A model generated the notes under the pieces. The model ran no database searches. It was not told where the DNA came from and worked only from the letters and a program-made list of their open reading frames with translations. From an uncultured Bacteroidia bacterium (GTDB lineage: Bacteria > Bacteroidota > Bacteroidia > Bacteroidales > F082), in the NCBI GenBank assembly GCA_902767725.1, contig CACXIM010000007.1:1-35139 (forward strand): DNA of 35,139 nucleotides. Reading direction: 5' to 3'. Numbering within the stretch: the stretch's first letter is position 1; each line of letters begins with the position of its first letter. Below, one piece after another: positions 10,645-32,196 of this stretch. The position numbers were made by a program, and so were the translations under genes.

Positions 10645-12105
10645 ATGCAAACCCCTGATATTCAAAACATACTAGCCGAATTAACCCGTTCCATCGGTGA
10701 AACGCCCAAGGATATTTTACCTATAGCAGAGTCAGGCTCGGCGAGGAAGTATTTCCGTATCATCACTGACAATAAGAGCCTTATTGGCACTTATAGTAAC
10801 AATGTTGAGGAGAACGAGGCTTTTCTCTGTTTCAGCAAGCATTTCCATGACTTGGGGCTGAATGTGCCCAAGGTCTTTGCCGTCAATGCTGAGCGCACTT
10901 GTTATTTGCAAAGCGACTTCGGAGATGACAACTTGTTTGCGCATGTGCAGAAGGCTTTGATGGCTGAAGGTTTTGGAGAGAATAATATCGAGCTTTATAA
11001 AAAGGCATTGGGGCATCTTGTGAAACTGCAAGTACTAGGACACCAAGGCTTGGACTACAGCAAGGCCTACCCTACCGAGCGTTTCGACCGTCAGGCTATC
11101 ATCGACGACCTTAACTATTTCAAGTATTACTTCGTCAAGCCGCACGAGGAAATCGACTTCAACGAGACGCGTCTGGGCAAAGACTTCGAAGCTTTTGCTG
11201 ACTTTGTCAGCCAAGCACCCTGCGACTTCTTCATGTACCGCGATTTCCAATCTCGCAACATCATGGTGAAAGATGGCGAACTGTATTTCATCGACTTCCA
11301 AGGCGGGAGAAAAGGTCCGTTGAACTACGATGTGGTCTCGCTGCTCTATCAAGTGAAGGCGCAGATTCCACAAACCATACGCGACGAACTGGTCAACTAT
11401 TACAAAGCTGAACTTTCCCAATACATGAGCCCAGAAGCCGTCAAATTTGACACTTACCAACCCTATTTCGTTTACTTGAGGTTGATGCAAGTACTTGGCG
11501 CTTACGGTTTCAGAGGTCTCATCCAAAAGAAGTCGCACTTCATTGAGAGCATCCCATACGCCTTAAAAGAACTAAAAGCCTGGAATGAAACCCACCCATT
11601 AATCAAATACCCTGAACTCCAAAGCATCATCTCCCAACTCTCCACTCTCAACTATCCACTCCCAACCGACTCTAAACTCTCAACTCTAAACTCTAAACTC
11701 ACAGTCACCATCAACAGCTTCTCATTCAAGAAGGGCTACCCAGCCGACTTCAGCGGCAACGGAGGCGGCTTCGTGTTCGACTGTCGCGCCCTGCCCAATC
11801 CGGGCCGCGAGCCTGAATTCAAGACCAAGACCGGTCGCGACTGGGAGGTCATCGACTACCTCATGGCCAAACCGCCCGTCCATGTCTTCCTCGACCATGT
11901 GAAAGGCATTGTAAGCCAAAGTGTTGAAAACTACAAAGAACGGCATTTCAGCAACCTAATGGTCTCCTTTGGCTGCACAGGCGGACAGCACCGCTCCGTC
12001 TTCTTCGCCCAAACCATCTACGAATGGCTGAAAGCGACCTATCCCGACATTCACCTGAAACTAAACCACATCGAACGCAAAATCACGGAGGAAGCTGGCT
12101 TATGA
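10645..12105 (+). CDS. AmgK-like sugar kinase fused to a RapZ C-terminal domain
   Basis: 486 residues in two parts. Residues 1-330 are a phosphotransferase of the aminoglycoside-kinase fold: SGSARKYFRI near residue 30 (the AmgK/choline-kinase-like N-lobe mark), catalytic loop YRDFQSRNIM with Asp200 and Asn205, and metal-binding Asp217 in FIDFQGG. Residues 352-486 match the C-terminal domain of RapZ (UPF0042): SFSFKKGYP, FVFDCRALPNPGREPE, TG-D, and GCTGGQHRS (443-451). The RapZ N-terminal P-loop domain is absent. In E. coli the RapZ C-terminal domain binds glucosamine-6-phosphate and small RNAs; AmgK phosphorylates MurNAc and GlcNAc at C1. Together with the MurU-like gene (ATGA overlap) this suggests a cell-wall sugar salvage kinase with a built-in sensor; that role is inference. 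The linker (331-351) is encoded by a heptamer repeat array. Confidence 0.85.
   Translation: MQTPDIQNILAELTRSIGETPKDILPIAESGSARKYFRIITDNKSLIGTYSNNVEENEAFLCFSKHFHDLGLNVPKVFAVNAERTCYLQSDFGDDNLFAHVQKALMAEGFGENNIELYKKALGHLVKLQVLGHQGLDYSKAYPTERFDRQAIIDDLNYFKYYFVKPHEEIDFNETRLGKDFEAFADFVSQAPCDFFMYRDFQSRNIMVKDGELYFIDFQGGRKGPLNYDVVSLLYQVKAQIPQTIRDELVNYYKAELSQYMSPEAVKFDTYQPYFVYLRLMQVLGAYGFRGLIQKKSHFIESIPYALKELKAWNETHPLIKYPELQSIISQLSTLNYPLPTDSKLSTLNSKLTVTINSFSFKKGYPADFSGNGGGFVFDCRALPNPGREPEFKTKTGRDWEVIDYLMAKPPVHVFLDHVKGIVSQSVENYKERHFSNLMVSFGCTGGQHRSVFFAQTIYEWLKATYPDIHLKLNHIERKITEEAGL
11637..11700 (+). repeat. Heptamer tandem array forming the kinase-RapZ linker
   Basis: Consensus ACTCTNA repeated about nine times, four of them nearly perfect at the end (ACTCTAA, ACTCTCA, ACTCTAA, ACTCTAA, then ACTC). 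Three 7-base units make seven codons, which gives the repeated peptide SKLSTLN. It lies exactly between the two domains. Confidence 0.8.
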
Positions 12106-12875
12106 GTCCAAGAATCGACACCACCGCAATGATATTGGCCGCCGGCCTCGGCACGCGCCTCAAAGCACTGACCCAAGACAGGCCCAAGGCTTTGGTAGAG
12201 CTTAACGGCAAGCCTTTATTGCAGCATTGCATTGAGAACCTGATTGCCAACGGCTTCTATCACATTGTCATCAACGTGCATCATTTTGGCGAACAAATCA
12301 TCGAATTTGTGAGCCAACATCGGTTTGATGCCGTCATCCAGATTTCCGACGAGCGCGACTTGCTCATGGACACGGGCGGAGGTATCGTCAAGGCCACTCC
12401 ACTTTTCAAGGATTCAAAAGCCGTTATGGTGCATAATGTGGACATCATCAGCAATGTGAATCTACGTGAAATGAGCCAACAATTCCTCGATTCTGATGAT
12501 GATGCTTGGCTGCTGACGCAAGATAGGGAGACGAATAGAAAACTGCTGTTTGATGATGAGAACTTGCTGATTGGGTGGATGAACAAGGCTGAAGCACAAT
12601 TCAAATGGGTCGATGAATCTAGTACGGCCCTTCGACGGGCTCAGGGACCTCAACCATGCTATAAAGAACTGGCCTTCAGCGGGTTGCATTTCTTCCGCAA
12701 CGATTTGTTTGCCAAGTTTGAGGTCAAACCACAGAGTGTCATTGACTTATACCTTCATTTGGCCAAAAGCAAACGCATCGTTTCCAAGCCTATCCAACCC
12801 GATTATTGGTTCGATTTGGGCAAGCCCGAACAATTGCAAGCCGCTGAAAATTACCTTAACAACATAGTAAAATGA
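12102..12875 (+). CDS. MurU-like sugar-1-phosphate nucleotidyltransferase
   Basis: 257 residues from MSPRIDTTAM; a longer frame from 12024 runs inside the previous gene and was not used. The nucleotide-binding signature ILAAGLGTRLKALTQDRPKAL is at 11-31. D90-TGGGI matches the ETGGGI motif typical of MurU/mannose-1-phosphate guanylyltransferase-like enzymes, and the metal-binding Asp lies in HNVDII (about 114). The C-terminus DYWFDLGKPEQLQAAENYL is also typical. MurU transfers UMP to MurNAc-1-phosphate in peptidoglycan recycling; the nucleotide and sugar cannot be fixed from sequence. Start and stop both overlap neighbours as ATGA. Residues about 175-184 (TALRRAQGPQ) are encoded by a REP-like repeat unit and look like an insertion in a surface loop. 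Confidence 0.85.
   Translation: MSPRIDTTAMILAAGLGTRLKALTQDRPKALVELNGKPLLQHCIENLIANGFYHIVINVHHFGEQIIEFVSQHRFDAVIQISDERDLLMDTGGGIVKATPLFKDSKAVMVHNVDIISNVNLREMSQQFLDSDDDAWLLTQDRETNRKLLFDDENLLIGWMNKAEAQFKWVDESSTALRRAQGPQPCYKELAFSGLHFFRNDLFAKFEVKPQSVIDLYLHLAKSKRIVSKPIQPDYWFDLGKPEQLQAAENYLNNIVK
12626..12649 (+). repeat. REP-like unit embedded in the nucleotidyltransferase gene
   Basis: Contains CCCTTCGACGGGCTCAGGG, the same unit found between genes at 23331-23399 and 32161-32179. Here it is read through in frame as ALRRAQGP. Confidence 0.8.
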
Positions 12876-15778
12876 GCCACGACACCTTCATTTCAAAACT
12901 AGCCCAGCACATACAAAGCCACTACGACCTCAAAAAGCAGGAACTGACCGTAGTGTTCCCCAACAAAAGGGCGGCTTTCTATTTGCGCAACGCGTTCAAA
13001 ACAAATTGCGGCCAGACCCTTTGGCTGCCACAAATGATTTCCATAGAGGAGGCGGTCACCCAATGGAGCGGAATGGCCCTCGCCGACAACATCGACTTGC
13101 TATTTGAGCTCATCGACATTGATGCTAAACTGCACGTGGCGCAAGCCAGCGACCTGAGCGCTTTTGGCGGTAAGGCGGCCCAAATGGCCAAGGACTTCGA
13201 CGAGATTGACCAGTATGGCATCAACGCAGAAAAAGTGTTCCAATATGTAGCCGACGACACCGCACTGAGAATTTGGGACGTGGAGGGTGCAAACCACACC
13301 AAAAAAGAGCTCGAATACCTTGGATTCTATAAATCGCTTCATGGCTATTACCTCCAACTCCGCGAACGTTTGGCCCAACAACGCAAAGGCTATTACGGCA
13401 TGATCACCCGTCAGCTTTCGGAGCTGTCAGAGAAGGAACTGATTACCAAAATCGGCGACAGACAGATCATTTTCGCCGGCTTCAACGCTTTGACCACAAC
13501 AGAAGAGCACATCATCGACACTTTGATCAAAAACGGCAAGGCCGAAATCCTCTTCGACTATGACCACTACTATGTTGACGACCCCGTGAACGAGGCAGGG
13601 ACTTTTGCCCGCAAGTATCAAATACATCACCCCGATTGGCTGAAAGACGGTATTGTCAACCGCTTACAAACTGAGGAAAAGACCATTCATATCATCAGCG
13701 CAGGCGGCAATGCGATGCAGGCCAAGGCCTTGCAAGCCAAGCTTCAAGAGACAAACAGCAAAGACCAGGCCGTCGTCCTTGCTGACGAGAACCTGCTCAT
13801 TCCTGTCTTGAATAGCATACCCAACTCGAACTCAGAATTCAAAGTCTCCATGGGTTATCCGCTATCTCAAACACCCGTCAACCAACTCATTAAGGCGTGT
13901 TTTGCCTTGTCGCGCCGTGACAAAATCGTCCGAAACATCACCGAAAACGGCTCCGTGCGCCAAGCCAAAGGCTTTTACATCTGGCCCATCCTGCAACTCA
14001 TGGACCTCGAAATCGTGAAAATCATTTTCCCTAGAAACGAGCTCAATGCCTTTAGCCAATGGAAATACAAGGCCGTTAAGGAAGGTAAGTTCATCTTTGA
14101 GGGCAATGACATTGATGCCTTACAACAAATGCCTAACATCCAAGCATTTCTGAGGGTTATCCTTACAAGAGATGCAGAGCAATCGCCCGCTGCAACCTTG
14201 GATAATGCCATTCAACTATTGGCTTTCATAGCGCAGTTGCTCCAATCAAAACCCGAGCAAGACAGGAACTATTTCCTCCTCAACCAAGTGGGCGAGATTG
14301 GGAAAATCATCAGCCGGCTGCAAAAGATCATCGCTCAAAACTCCCAATATATCAAAGACATACACAGCCTTGAGGCCTTGTATCGGGTGCTTTCGTCGGC
14401 ATCGAATCTGAAGTTGAACAGCAGCGAGACCGACGGCCTACAGATCATGGGCTTACTCGAGACCCGCAACCTTGACTTTGAGCAACTTCACCTGCTCAGC
14501 GTCAACGAAGGCATCATGCCGCCCGACAAGTCGCGTGGCAGCTTTATCCCCCAGTTCATCCGCCGTGCCTGTGGACTGCCGAGCTACACCGAAAGTCAAG
14601 CCGTGGTGGCCTACCATTTTTATCGGTTGTTGCAAAACGGTAAAAAGATCCACCTGTACTTTAACAACTTGGGCGAGACCTTTGGTGGCGAAGCCAGTCG
14701 CTTCATCTTGCAAATCAAGCACGAACTGGCCAAAAATCCCAACATCAAGATTGAGGAAGCGGCATTCAGCACCACGGCCAAGTCCTCCATCGAGACGAAA
14801 TCCCTTAGTGCCCTGAAAACCGAGGAAACAGTAAAGAAGCTCCATTTTCTGCTCGAAGACGAGGAAAAAGGCCTCTCTCCCACATCGCTGTCGACCTACC
14901 TCAACTGTCCGTTACAATACTACCTCAAGCATATCGTCAACATCAAGGACAACAGTGTTGAGGAAGAAACGGGCACCGACGTCATCGGCAACATCATCCA
15001 CGACACCTTGCAATTCCTGTTTGACGACTATCTCCCGCAAGATGGCAAGCCCCAAATCATCGACAAGAAACTCTTTGTCGAGGTCATCAAGCCACAATGG
15101 GAACAGAAACTGGCCCTATCCAAAGCGAAAAACACGCCCAACGGCTTCCCCGATGTGGGCTTCAACTACCTGAACCATGTCAAAGTTGACCAGCAGTTGA
15201 AAAACTACCTCAACTATACTTCCAATCAATTGGAAAACAGCGACTTGGTAATCCTTAAAACCGAGGGCAAGCTAAAAACCAAGCTCCATACCGACCAAGG
15301 CGATTTCATCATCAGTGGCCGTGCCGACCGAATCGACCAGTTTGGAGGCATCACACGCGTCATCGACTACAAGACAGGCTCGGTAGACAGCGCCGACTTG
15401 AAAAAACCCGTACGCCATCACAGCGAGACCGACTTGGAATATATGAGACAGATTCCCGCGAAGGCTTTGCAACTGCTCCTTTACAAATACCTGTACCTCA
15501 AAGAGAATCCATTCATGAATCCCAATGCCATCGCAGGCGCCATACATGGGTTGAAGTATCCTCACAACATTGAATTCAGCCTTTCGCAGGCCACTGCCAA
15601 AAAAGAAGAAAAAGATGTTGATGCCAATTTCCTTGAGGGCAGTTCCTTTGTCGCCGACATGGACGCCATGCTGAAAGCCGTTATCGAAGAGATGCTTGAC
15701 ACGGACACCCCCTTCGTGCAAGCCGAGGACGACAAGAAATGCAAGTATTGTGATTTTAAGCTGATCTGCAAGAGGTAA
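12872..15778 (+). CDS. AddB-like PD-(D/E)XK nuclease with iron-sulfur cluster motif
   Basis: 968 residues. The N-terminal part resembles an inactivated UvrD-like helicase as in AddB (LTVVFPNKRAAFYLRNAF in place of a Walker A, LLSVNEGIMPPDKSRG further on). The C-terminal RecB-type nuclease domain has ISGRADRID and Asp832-Tyr-Lys834 in VIDYKTG, then QLLLYKYLY. Four cysteines arranged as Cys679 (LNCPLQYYL) and Cys957-x2-Cys960-x5-Cys966 reproduce the AddB/Dna2 4Fe-4S staple. AddB works with the AddA helicase in double-strand break end resection. No addA gene is adjacent in this window. The start overlaps the nucleotidyltransferase stop (ATGA), so it belongs to that operon; its stop faces the DUF721 gene with only two bases between. 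Confidence 0.88.
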   Translation: MSHDTFISKLAQHIQSHYDLKKQELTVVFPNKRAAFYLRNAFKTNCGQTLWLPQMISIEEAVTQWSGMALADNIDLLFELIDIDAKLHVAQASDLSAFGGKAAQMAKDFDEIDQYGINAEKVFQYVADDTALRIWDVEGANHTKKELEYLGFYKSLHGYYLQLRERLAQQRKGYYGMITRQLSELSEKELITKIGDRQIIFAGFNALTTTEEHIIDTLIKNGKAEILFDYDHYYVDDPVNEAGTFARKYQIHHPDWLKDGIVNRLQTEEKTIHIISAGGNAMQAKALQAKLQETNSKDQAVVLADENLLIPVLNSIPNSNSEFKVSMGYPLSQTPVNQLIKACFALSRRDKIVRNITENGSVRQAKGFYIWPILQLMDLEIVKIIFPRNELNAFSQWKYKAVKEGKFIFEGNDIDALQQMPNIQAFLRVILTRDAEQSPAATLDNAIQLLAFIAQLLQSKPEQDRNYFLLNQVGEIGKIISRLQKIIAQNSQYIKDIHSLEALYRVLSSASNLKLNSSETDGLQIMGLLETRNLDFEQLHLLSVNEGIMPPDKSRGSFIPQFIRRACGLPSYTESQAVVAYHFYRLLQNGKKIHLYFNNLGETFGGEASRFILQIKHELAKNPNIKIEEAAFSTTAKSSIETKSLSALKTEETVKKLHFLLEDEEKGLSPTSLSTYLNCPLQYYLKHIVNIKDNSVEEETGTDVIGNIIHDTLQFLFDDYLPQDGKPQIIDKKLFVEVIKPQWEQKLALSKAKNTPNGFPDVGFNYLNHVKVDQQLKNYLNYTSNQLENSDLVILKTEGKLKTKLHTDQGDFIISGRADRIDQFGGITRVIDYKTGSVDSADLKKPVRHHSETDLEYMRQIPAKALQLLLYKYLYLKENPFMNPNAIAGAIHGLKYPHNIEFSLSQATAKKEEKDVDANFLEGSSFVADMDAMLKAVIEEMLDTDTPFVQAEDDKKCKYCDFKLICKR

Positions 15779-15780
15779 AC

Positions 15781-16071
15781 TCAGTTGAGCACGATTTCCT
15801 TCACCATCTCCTTCCCTACTATCTCGTTCAAGTTCTTCATCAACAAGGACTTGGAATAACTCAGTTCGTTGCGCAAGGCATCGCTGTCGACGCGAACAAA
15901 CAGTCTTCCCTCCTTGATGGAAAGGTCAATGGTATGCGAAGCAATGAAAGGCCCGACCACCTTAGGCCATGATTCCACGACCTTGACTTCGTCAAGATAC
16001 TCAGGGCCACGATGCTGTTCGTAGAACGCTTTGATAAGGTCGCCCAAAGGCTTCACGTCGTAGTAAATCAT
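15781..16071 (-). CDS. DUF721 / DciA-like protein
   Basis: 96 residues, full length for this family. Residues include VKPLGDLIKAFYEQHRGPEYLDEVKVVESWPKVVGPFIASHT and LFVRVDSDALRNELSYSKSLL, the DUF721 core. DUF721 overlaps DciA, the replicative helicase loader of many bacteria that lack DnaC or DnaI; the KH-like fold binds DNA and DnaB. In Bacteroidota this loader role is inferred from family. Its ATG overlaps the recF stop (ATGA), so RecF and this protein are made together, a common neighbourhood linking it to replication and repair. Confidence 0.88.
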   Translation of the reverse strand: MIYYDVKPLGDLIKAFYEQHRGPEYLDEVKVVESWPKVVGPFIASHTIDLSIKEGRLFVRVDSDALRNELSYSKSLLMKNLNEIVGKEMVKEIVLN

Positions 16072-17186
16072 AGCCCACCTCCTATCTCTTTTACACAGCC
16101 TTTTTCCACTTCGAAAATCTTGTGGTCGATATTAGTATTTTCGAACAGCTTCTCAACCCTACCCTGCTGTGTGTCAGTGATAAACACCTGACCGAAATGA
16201 TCGTCACCGACCAAACGAACGAGTTTCATCACGCGCTGGTCGTCGAGTTTGTCGAAGATGTCATCCAACAGCAAAATGGGCTTGTAACCGATTTTTTGAT
16301 AGTTGAACTCGAACTGTGCCAAACGGATGGAAACCACAAACGATTTCTGCTGTCCCTGTGAGCCGAAACGCTTCAAAGGATGGCCGTCAAGGGTAAACTC
16401 CAAGTCATCCTTGTGGATGCCCACGTTGGTGTAGCCCGAATATCGATCCTGCTGCAAACTCTCCTCAAAAAGTTCGTATAATGGCTTTTCGTCAAGCCGC
16501 GACTGGTAAATCACGTTCACCTTCTCCGTGCCACCTGAAACAATCTCATAATAATGCTGGAAAATGGGTAGGAACTCCTCCAAAAACCGATGGCGCTTGG
16601 CATGGATGTCGTCAGCATGTTGCGCCAGCTGGTCCTCCCAAAGTCGGAGCAACTCACGGTCAAAATGACGGCTTTCGGCAAATTGTTTCAATTGCATATT
16701 GCGTTGCAGCAAGGCTCGGTTGTATTTCAGCAATGCGTTGAGATACAAGGGATCAAACTGAGAGATGACGCCATCGATGAACTTTCGGCGCAGGTCACTA
16801 CCTTCATTAATAAGGTCGCGGTCGTAGGGCGAGATCATCACCAAGGGGAACTTACCGATATGGTCGCTGAGGCGGTCGTATTCCTTCTTGTTGAAACGAA
16901 ACGACTTCTTCTGGTCGCGTTTCTGCACGCACGACACCAACTCGTCATCCTTGCCATCGTGAGAATACACGCCATGGATGGCAAAGAAATCCTGCTCGTG
17001 AAGGATGTTTTGCTTGTCAGTAGCGCCAAAGAAGCTCTTGCAAAACGAAAGGTAATAGATGGAATCGAGGATGTTGGTCTTCCCTGCCCCATTGAGGCCC
17101 ACGAAACAATTGACGTTCTCCGAAAGCAGCAAATCGGCCGATTTGCAGTTCTTGAAGTTGGTCAGTTTAAGTTCGTGGAGATACAT
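16068..17186 (-). CDS. recF: DNA replication and repair protein RecF
   Basis: 372 residues, typical length. The start MYLHELKLTNFKNC is canonical. Walker A is GLNGAGKT (30-37), followed by DSIYYLSFCKSFF. The ABC signature region is LKRFGSQGQQKSFVVSIRLAQ and Walker B is ILLLDDIFDKLD, with a D-loop-like sequence after it. RecF is an SMC-like ATPase that loads RecA at gaps with RecO and RecR. It overlaps the DUF721 gene and lies 88 bases after porQ; the gap is occupied by an octamer repeat array and shows no promoter box. Confidence 0.97.
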   Translation of the reverse strand: MYLHELKLTNFKNCKSADLLLSENVNCFVGLNGAGKTNILDSIYYLSFCKSFFGATDKQNILHEQDFFAIHGVYSHDGKDDELVSCVQKRDQKKSFRFNKKEYDRLSDHIGKFPLVMISPYDRDLINEGSDLRRKFIDGVISQFDPLYLNALLKYNRALLQRNMQLKQFAESRHFDRELLRLWEDQLAQHADDIHAKRHRFLEEFLPIFQHYYEIVSGGTEKVNVIYQSRLDEKPLYELFEESLQQDRYSGYTNVGIHKDDLEFTLDGHPLKRFGSQGQQKSFVVSIRLAQFEFNYQKIGYKPILLLDDIFDKLDDQRVMKLVRLVGDDHFGQVFITDTQQGRVEKLFENTNIDHKIFEVEKGCVKEIGGGL

Positions 17187-17194
17187 GTTTTTAT

Positions 17195-17271
17195 GACTTC
17201 GGGACTTCGGGACTTCGAGTCTTCAAGGACTTGACATGTCTCGCAGTCCCGCAGTCTCGTAGTCTCGTGTC
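17195..17271. repeat. Inverted array of 8-base repeats, second copy
   Basis: Plus-strand units GACTTCGG, GACTTCGG, GACTTCGA are followed by GTCTTCAAGGACTTG and then by inverse units (CTCGCAGT, CCCGCAGT, CTCGTAGT, CTCG). The array fills nearly all of the recF-porQ gap. It is the same family as 8847-8907. Confidence 0.8.
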
Positions 17272-17274
17272 AAT

Positions 17275-18324
17275 TTAGAATTTACTTAAATCTACACGGA
17301 GTGTCAGGAAATTGGGCGAGCCAACGATGTTGTTCCTTGAGCGGGCATAGTCGATCTGGAATGCCTTGATTCTCACGCCAAAACCAGCAGAGAAGCCTAC
17401 CAAGCTACGTGCCTCGGGCACACTCATCTCGCGGTGAGTCTCGTAGTTGTAAGATGCCCTAAGGAATAGGTTCTTACCGATAGCCAACTCACCGCCAATC
17501 AACAGATGGCAACCCAAGTTAGTGAAAAACCGAGCGGCCTTCGAAGGCGCTTGATACTCGCCCGAAATGGGATCGTAATAACCAGCCAAATCGAGCGGAT
17601 CGTCATAGAGTTTGTTCCAATGTTGGATGTCCTTATAGCCCATGATGATGGTCAACGGCAAGTGGTCGAGTTTCTTGGAAGCCATGAAATCCAAAGAGAA
17701 AGGCAGCCATTTGTCATCCACGTTCAACTCTTGCGAAAAGAGCTGTCGGCCAATGTTGCGCGCGGCAAGAGTGAATGCCCAGTTGGAATAAGACCAATAG
17801 GTGCCAGCCACATCCACACCCAACGCACCAGCACGACCCGCTTCATACTGCACACCGGCATACTTCAAGTTGGCACCGATGCTCCATTTGTCAGTCAACT
17901 CGCGGCCCCAGCCAAGGGTGACGGCATAGTCGGAAACGTTGAAAGTGCTACCGTCGGTGTAGCCGCTTTCGGAAGCATACTGCATCGCGCCATAGTTGTA
18001 ATACTGCACCGAAGTTGCGAAGCTACCCAAGCTCTCGAATGTGTGGCTGTATTGTGCCGTGGCGAAGTTGGTGCCGACATTAAAATCACCAACATAAGAC
18101 AAGGTCAGTTGGTTGTTCATCTCGGGCGAGATGGCCGAAGGGTTGAACACGGCCGTCTGCAAATCACCGTCATGCACGGGCAACGGCAGTCCACCCAGAG
18201 CCACCACACGGGCCGAGTTGGCATCTGTCAAGGCGCGATAGAGGCCATTGCTCACTTGTGCATGGGATTGCAAAGCGATGATTGACAGCACCAAAGAGCA
18301 TATAACGTAGATTGTTCGTTTCAT
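17275..18324 (-). CDS. porQ: Type IX secretion system protein PorQ
   Basis: 349 residues from MKRTIYVICSLV; a start nine codons earlier is possible but spoils the signal peptide (about 1-22, ending SHA). The body resembles the PorV/FadL-like beta-barrel of PorQ: ARVVALGGLPLPVHDGDLQTAVFNPSAI, QYNYGAMQYASESG, LGWGRELTDKWSIGANLKY, and LVGFSAGFGVRIKAFQIDYARS near the end, closing with VDLSKF. PorQ is part of the attachment complex that, with PorU, PorV and PorZ, processes type IX cargo at the outer membrane. The rest of the system is not in the window. It follows nusB by 57 bases with no promoter box in between, so it may be read from the nusB promoter. Confidence 0.88.
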   Translation of the reverse strand: MKRTIYVICSLVLSIIALQSHAQVSNGLYRALTDANSARVVALGGLPLPVHDGDLQTAVFNPSAISPEMNNQLTLSYVGDFNVGTNFATAQYSHTFESLGSFATSVQYYNYGAMQYASESGYTDGSTFNVSDYAVTLGWGRELTDKWSIGANLKYAGVQYEAGRAGALGVDVAGTYWSYSNWAFTLAARNIGRQLFSQELNVDDKWLPFSLDFMASKKLDHLPLTIIMGYKDIQHWNKLYDDPLDLAGYYDPISGEYQAPSKAARFFTNLGCHLLIGGELAIGKNLFLRASYNYETHREMSVPEARSLVGFSAGFGVRIKAFQIDYARSRNNIVGSPNFLTLRVDLSKF

Positions 18325-18381
18325 AGATTCATTTTTACAGGATAACGACACCTATTTCATTATTATTGCGCTGATGTGCAA

Positions 18382-23330: not shown

Positions 23331-23399
23331 GGGCCTTCGACGGGCTCAGGCGCCTTCGGCTCTTGCATCAATCAAAGTCCCTGAGCTTGTCGAAGGGCC
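23331..23399. repeat. Inverted pair of REP-like units overlapping the truA 3' end
   Basis: GGCCTTCGACGGGCTCAGG at 23332-23350 and CCCTGAGCTTGTCGAAGGG within 23379-23399 are inverted copies with a 28-base centre, forming a long stem. The right unit encodes the last residues of TruA. Confidence 0.85.
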
Positions 23400-32118: not shown

Positions 32119-32179
32119 TGAGCCTGTCGAAGTATCGAAGCACCGTCTTTTTGCTGTCGACCCTTCGACGAGCTCAGGG
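32119..32179. repeat. Inverted pair of REP-like units upstream of nadE
   Basis: CCCTTCGACGAGCTCAGGG at 32161-32179 and an inverse, less complete unit at 32119-32132 (TGAGCCTGTCGAAG). Same family as 12626-12649 and 23331-23399. Confidence 0.75.
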
Positions 32180-32196
32180 CTCAGGGGCTTTGGGTT

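Follow-up and report, generated by a model that had tools for sequence, protein, structure and literature searches.

A kinase fused to the C-terminal domain of RapZ forms a conserved module with a MurU-like gene in Bacteroidota and other phyla

Introduction

The C-terminal domain of RapZ is familiar as a sensor of metabolites that also binds RNA, and the role of its essential cysteine is unexplained. What, then, is such a domain doing at the end of a sugar kinase? The question is raised by a 35,139-nucleotide stretch of DNA from an uncultured Bacteroidia bacterium of the order Bacteroidales (contig CACXIM010000007.1; this whole stretch is referred to here as the window), in which a kinase resembling AmgK is fused to a RapZ C-terminal domain (RapZ_C) and followed by a gene resembling MurU. 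No description of a kinase–RapZ_C fusion was found in the literature searched, and the architecture is real, widespread and set within a known kind of pathway, probably the salvage of N-acetylmuramic acid (MurNAc). Here, we describe the conservation of this module before weighing what RapZ_C may contribute to it. Its parts in the window are as follows.

10645–12105, plus strand: fusion gene of 486 residues, an AmgK-like kinase of the APH fold joined to RapZ_C (Pfam, NCBIfam, structure model)
10645–11634, plus strand: kinase domain, about residues 1–330, with Asp200, Asn205 and Asp217 (Pfam APH match at residues 24–255, Foldseek, alignment)
11637–11697, plus strand: inter-domain linker with 7-base ACTCTMA-like repeats (motif count, structure model)
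11698–12069, plus strand: RapZ C-terminal domain, residues 352–475
11758–11769, plus strand: NGGG, residues 372–375, an insert typical of fusion-class RapZ_C (alignments)
11971–11997, plus strand: GCTGGQHRS, residues 443–451, the C-x5-R-S phosphate-binding loop (alignments; likeness of the loop from PMC7199280)
12102–12875, plus strand: MurU-like sugar-1-phosphate nucleotidyltransferase of 257 residues (NCBIfam MurU, E 6.1e-35, below cut-off; alignment A4)

A preliminary description, made from the sequence alone, had placed the kinase, RapZ_C, the MurU-like gene and an AddB-like gene at 10645–15778, and its coordinates, domains, residues and overlaps all proved correct, GCTGGQHRS indeed lying at residues 443–451 and Asp200, Asn205 and Asp217 within the kinase. 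The ATG of the MurU-like gene at 12102 overlaps the kinase stop codon at 12103–12105 as ATGA, and was taken as the start; the ATG at 12024 is simply the first one in frame.

A conserved three-part module

We are confident that the kinase, RapZ_C and the MurU-like gene constitute a real conserved module. Relatives were collected by scanning one genome per species, which gave at least 593 candidate stretches, at least 588 of them encoding relatives; the 80 best make up loci L031–L110. The titles of these 80, which are mostly metagenome-assembled, include Bacteroidales, Chitinophagales, Saprospirales, Ignavibacteria, Calditrichia, Elusimicrobia, Acidobacteriaceae and Delongbacteria. The closest relative among the matches listed, L031, comes from a rumen metagenome-assembled genome and has 86% identity over the fusion, with the same three genes in the same order. 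A chance reading frame or an assembly chimera was considered for the fusion and ruled out because of this identical gene order and the number of encoding relatives.

Co-occurrence was surveyed in 395 sampled genomes of Bacteroidota, the phylum of the window, for RapZ_C, the kinase, MurU and AnmK. RapZ_C was present in 49 of these genomes, in frames of 476–524 residues in 37 and of 134–169 residues in 12, and no RapZ_C frame of canonical RapZ length was found among the 395. When a close kinase is defined by E 1e-79 or better against a kinase-only alignment, 50 genomes have one, comprising all 49 with RapZ_C and one of the 346 others (G009; Fisher p 4e-62, uncorrected for kinship). MurU-like genes at E 1e-60 or better occur in 51 genomes, again all 49 and two of the 346 others (G009 and G231). 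Beyond these thresholds, 84 further genomes, all belonging to one family, f19, have a distant kinase (matches at 6e-20 to 2e-43), with a marginal match in G345 (5e-5), and the MurU-like matches that follow the 51 are in 12 f19 genomes (1e-45 to 1e-48, with the search cut at 1e-45).

The association extends to gene order. In 39 of the 49 genomes, MurU and RapZ_C share a strand and are no more than 489 bases apart; nine have MurU on another contig, and in G271 it is 280 kb away. Four genomes (G180, G271, G306 and G331) have RapZ_C away from the kinase gene. Among 81 sources, namely the 80 loci and the window, every one has a RapZ_C frame, fused to the kinase in 80 and split from it in L041. Adjacency of MurU was counted in the 78 that have at least 900 bases downstream or MurU in place: it is adjacent in 56, fused in one, elsewhere in the locus in two and not within the locus in 19, so that the genomic pairing typical of AmgK and MurU, as adjacent or fused genes, is seen in 57 of 78 loci. 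The fused case, L099:10010-12292, is a single open reading frame (ORF) of 760 residues in which Pfam finds APH, RapZ_C and NTP_transferase in that order. Where RapZ_C stands alone (12 loci), kinase, RapZ_C and MurU are consecutive in eight (L111 and L116–L122); L115 has only RapZ_C and MurU and L112–L114 have neither partner, the missing genes lying elsewhere in those four genomes. The order kinase, RapZ_C, MurU is thus kept as a fusion plus a gene, as three genes or as one ORF. That the three parts form a conserved unit best matched to the AmgK–MurU salvage pair, as first proposed from this one locus, is borne out by the 49 of 49 genomes and 57 of 78 loci.

Three variants deserve separate mention. 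On a Calditrichaceae contig (L041:3896-5332), the kinase and RapZ_C are separate frames followed by MurU, a split outside Bacteroidota that is not included in the tree described below. In G009 (L160:3090-4801), kinase and MurU-like genes overlap by 4 bases with no RapZ_C match, the sole such case with a close kinase among the 395. Lastly, L045, L046, L050, L052 and L055 have no MurU nearby and share a different gene of about 222 residues at the first position downstream.

History of the domain

In a tree of 96 RapZ_C domains, the seven canonical ones are set apart with support of 100/100, and the standalone domains nest among the fusions, so that well-supported branches force at least three changes between the fused and standalone states. 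Rooted on the canonical side, the tree reads as a fusion that was split three times; it rests on few alignment columns and leaves many forks without resolution. Despite these changes, none of the 49 RapZ_C genomes lacks the kinase. A canonical RapZ of 283–337 residues accompanies the fusion in all six Acidobacteria and Elusimicrobia genomes checked, and the other 13 of the 19 genomes checked have a single RapZ_C, of the fusion class.

The kinase and the MurU-like gene

The kinase half of the 486-residue ORF matches APH in Pfam (E 1e-9, residues 24–255), and its nearest NCBIfam models are two for AmgK (2.9e-15 and 5.1e-11), both far under their curated cut-offs. Against AmgK NF045759 it scores 56.2 bits with a cut-off of 550, making AmgK its nearest relative without membership by that rule. 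Asp200, Asn205 and Asp217, which we take to be the catalytic residues of the APH fold, are unchanged across the 73 rows of alignment A2, and the best Foldseek match of the domain is 3csv (E 4.6e-12). The fusion is predicted with a mean local distance difference test score (pLDDT) of 93.6 and a template-modelling score (pTM) of 0.77, confidence being low at linker residues 343–349. The linker itself contains five ACTCTMA-like matches at 11637–11697 against 0.11 expected, and as these 7-base repeats make it up, a simple repeat has been turned into a coding linker.

For the MurU-like protein, two MurU models lead the NCBIfam matches (25 of 37 families listed) at 6.1e-35 and 9.8e-34, each under its cut-off, followed by AglF at 2.1e-20; the score against MurU NF045697 is 120.7 bits, below the cut-off of 370. 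Its gene also carries a repeat.

12630–12649, plus strand: copy of a genome-wide short repeat within the MurU-like gene (repeat count, alignment A4)

This repeat, CTTCGACNNGCTCAGG, occurs 51 times in forward and 43 times in reverse orientation in the window's genome (G000), where a reversed-pattern control gave 0 and 0, and further copies lie in the window at 23335–23354, 23376–23395 and 32163–32182. None of the other 19 rows of alignment A4 has the repeat-bearing stretch. The MurU-like gene of L031 has a longer insertion at the same place, and another, L106:11493-12314, has roughly 28 extra residues of unrelated sequence, inserted in frame at a different site.

The module resembles the AmgK–MurU(–MupP) system of Pseudomonas in that an APH-type kinase adjoins a MurU-like uridylyltransferase; it differs in that the kinase is fused to or accompanied by RapZ_C, and in scores far below the curated cut-offs.

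Loop, pocket and RNA contacts of RapZ_C

RapZ_C matches PF22740 over residues 352–475 with E 3.1e-33 and 115 bits against a gathering score of 27. The protein is not a full RapZ (RNase adapter): its N-terminal half is APH rather than Walker-type, and it scores 108.1 bits against NCBIfam RapZ, where 244 are required. Residues were counted in the 81 sources and in 42 rows selected by PF22740; a separate set of 77 rows was picked by the loop motif itself.

The C-x5-R-S loop, present in the window, is intact in 80 of the 81 sources and all 42 PF22740-selected rows. Within it, C, T, G, G, H and S are invariant in both sets, and the Arg is kept in 80/81 and 42/42. The sole exception, L042:35-1483, has His for the loop Arg and lies on a metagenome contig, and so may reflect a sequencing error. 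Positions 433 and 435 vary across the 81 sources, which were not filtered by motif, and Gly387 is present throughout both sets, as is a GGG insert that is absent from six of six canonical RapZ and from RapZ of Escherichia coli. Cysteine-dependent phosphatases are recognised by a C-x5-R-S motif where a strand turns into a helix. The motif of RapZ_C sits between a strand and a helix in the same way, a feature shared with protein tyrosine phosphatases, including the low-molecular-weight type. Fold comparison with cysteine-dependent phosphatases gave matches at noise level; the overall fold is that of RapZ, and phosphatase activity is putative.

What is published on E. coli RapZ bears directly on this loop. 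Its pocket has been described as His190, Thr248, Gly249, His252 and Arg253, with sulphate or malonate bound (PMC5737377), and its C-terminal domain is reported to bind glucosamine-6-phosphate (GlcN6P; PMC7073468). The pocket has been likened to the loop of cysteine phosphatases, and hydrolysis of GlcN6P by RapZ was put forward as a guess (PMC7199280). A C247S variant is reported to be inactive, the thiol being suggested as catalytic, and the density seen with GlcN6P looked probably chemically transformed; Lys194 and Lys251 are listed among the RNA contacts (PMC9841335).

Set against this pocket, the domain has the fold and phosphate loop of E. coli RapZ but lacks the RapZ N-terminal domain, has the GGG insert and is changed at two positions: that of His190 is Gly in 81/81 sources and 42/42 rows, and that of Arg238, which contacts RNA, is occupied by Phe in 81/81 and 36/42, with Trp or Tyr in the other six. 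Kinship to RapZ/YvcJ (Bacillus) was judged through E. coli RapZ. The comparison of pocket residues proposed in the preliminary description had a divided outcome, the loop being kept and His190 not. Because the His190 position is Gly throughout, the domain probably does not read its ligand in the way that E. coli RapZ does, and the earlier suggestion that the domain senses GlcN6P in the E. coli manner is not supported as it was stated. On these residues, sensing fits RapZ_C no better than an altered ligand or catalysis does.

The same comparison bears on whether RapZ_C has kept its E. coli function here, as a binder of small RNAs through which the kinase would be linked to the regulation of amino-sugar synthesis by RNA. 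We think this improbable. In addition to the loss of Arg238, the Lys194 position is variable and that of Lys251 is Gln in 71 of the 77 motif-picked rows; the kinase replaces the RapZ N-terminal domain, and all six Acidobacteria and Elusimicrobia genomes checked keep their separate canonical RapZ. The K170 and R184 positions are mostly retained in the motif-picked rows, and Gln at position 251 is also found in three of six canonical RapZ.

Phosphatase, sensor or scaffold

The reading that we place first, tentatively and as somewhat less than an even chance when taken as a whole, is that the locus is a MurNAc salvage module in which RapZ_C is a cysteine-dependent phosphatase of MurNAc 6-phosphate (MurNAc-6P). 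Pseudomonas-type recycling has been described as the successive action of AnmK, MupP, AmgK and MurU (PMC13041923), with MupP as the MurNAc-6P phosphatase (PMC5371407). By analogy, a kinase–MurU pair fed by MurNAc-6P would need a phosphatase, for which RapZ_C is a candidate. RapZ_C, through its C-x5-R-S loop, would remove the 6-phosphate in a cysteine-dependent reaction; the kinase, judging by the AmgK family, would phosphorylate MurNAc at carbon 1; and the MurU-like enzyme, judging by its own family, would then yield the uridine diphosphate form, UDP-MurNAc. The fusion would thereby both clear carbon 6 and charge carbon 1, filling the role taken in Pseudomonas by the unrelated HAD phosphatase MupP. 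No HAD-family match was found in the fusion by Pfam or NCBIfam, so that what is proposed to be shared with MupP is the role. D368 and D379, each present in all 77 motif-picked rows, are candidates for the general acid on sequence grounds. Counted in support of the phosphatase are the co-occurrence, the gene order, the conservation of the loop, the E. coli RapZ literature, the presence of the kinase in every RapZ_C genome despite the changes between fused and standalone states, and the contrast with f19 discussed below.

Nearly as likely, ranking close behind, is the possibility that RapZ_C is an allosteric sensor of an amino-sugar phosphate (GlcN6P, MurNAc-6P or another) that tunes the kinase within the same salvage line, acting in cis in the fusions and in trans where the two are separate. 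The reported binding of GlcN6P by the E. coli domain favours this, and the retained phosphate loop, the fusion and the strict co-occurrence would suit a regulatory domain too. It accounts less readily for the four of 49 genomes in which RapZ_C lies apart from the kinase gene, for the His190 change, and for a loop Cys that is dispensable for mere phosphate binding and yet invariant in both residue sets (partly by selection).

That RapZ_C merely holds the enzymes together, as a dimer or channel with no ligand role, is an idea to which we give little credence. The E. coli domain is reported to dimerise (PMC5737377), and the triple fusion of L099 would be in keeping with it; the near invariance of the loop residues and the retention of RapZ_C as a gene of its own after splitting argue against it.

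Pathway context

The f19 family offers a contrast to the proposed phosphatase. Its operons (L161 and L163–L177) carry a distant AmgK-like kinase, a MurU-like protein with a longer C-terminus, the exo-muramidase NamZ and a sodium symporter, without RapZ_C. By ORF comparison of 16 f19 regions, all contain MurU, 15 the kinase, 13 NamZ and 13 the symporter, and at L161 Pfam identifies NamZ_N (2.7e-73) and SSF (2.7e-27). NamZ is also beside the kinase in G020, G075 and G106, outside these counts. None of the 84 f19 genomes has RapZ_C, and neither they nor G009 are among the 272 of 395 genomes with AnmK; MurQ was found in none of the 11 kinase–MurU genomes without RapZ_C that were tested (10 from f19 and G009). 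If MurNAc is freed by NamZ and imported in f19, the route would run without MurNAc-6P and no 6-phosphatase would be needed.

Several counts in the RapZ_C genomes weigh against the MurNAc-6P phosphatase. AnmK is not enriched with RapZ_C, at 32/49 (one weak, G216) versus 272/395 overall; MurQ is present at E 7e-89 or better in 20 of the 49, 18 of them over the curated cut-off; and 13 have neither AnmK nor MurQ. On the side of the phosphatase, one or other is present in 36. The window's own genome (79.6% complete, 5.8% contaminated) has AnmK and NamZ, and its only MurQ match (2.9e-9) is in a 618-residue frame taken for GlmS-like because of its length.

The AddB-like neighbour

12872–15778, plus strand: AddB-like PD-(D/E)XK nuclease gene, a neighbour judged to lie outside the module (PDDEXK_1, 1e-27; addB_alphas, 7e-18)

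The start of this gene at 12872 overlaps the stop codon of the MurU-like gene, a coupling that the preliminary description had left unexplained. Of the 70 loci whose downstream flank reaches 4.5 kb, seven (the window, L031, L032, L033, L039, L093 and L106) have an AddB-like gene following, and so does L060, where less than 4.5 kb is available. The protein resembles the AddB of AddAB helicase-nucleases; here no AddA is beside it, and the best AddA-like match in the genome is on contig C22, away from the locus. A functional link between wall recycling and DNA repair could draw on the ATGA overlap in the window and on the recurrence of the gene in the other loci, but with only seven of 70 loci and AddA-like sequence on another contig the coupling needs no functional explanation, and we consider such a link very improbable. 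The overlap is regarded as compact packing and the nuclease as a bystander. Just downstream, on the minus strand and convergent with the AddB-like gene, recF adjoins a PorQ-type secretion gene (16068–18351).

Implications for RapZ and wall-sugar recycling

A broader statement, which we regard as rather unlikely as a whole, is that RapZ_C was ancestrally a sugar-phosphate phosphatase, serving as the MurNAc-6P phosphatase of a one- or two-protein line from MurNAc-6P to UDP-MurNAc in Bacteroidota, Acidobacteria and Elusimicrobia, and that the RNA regulator of E. coli descends from it, the catalytic pocket having been turned into a sensor of GlcN6P and RNA. In any case, the attachment of RapZ_C to a metabolic pathway, with no other part of RapZ, opens the published guess of phosphatase chemistry to direct testing. 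If the activity is as proposed, it would provide the phosphatase step in the wall-sugar recycling of a part of Bacteroidota (RapZ_C being present in 49 of 395 genomes), and would hint at the job that RapZ had before it became a regulator.
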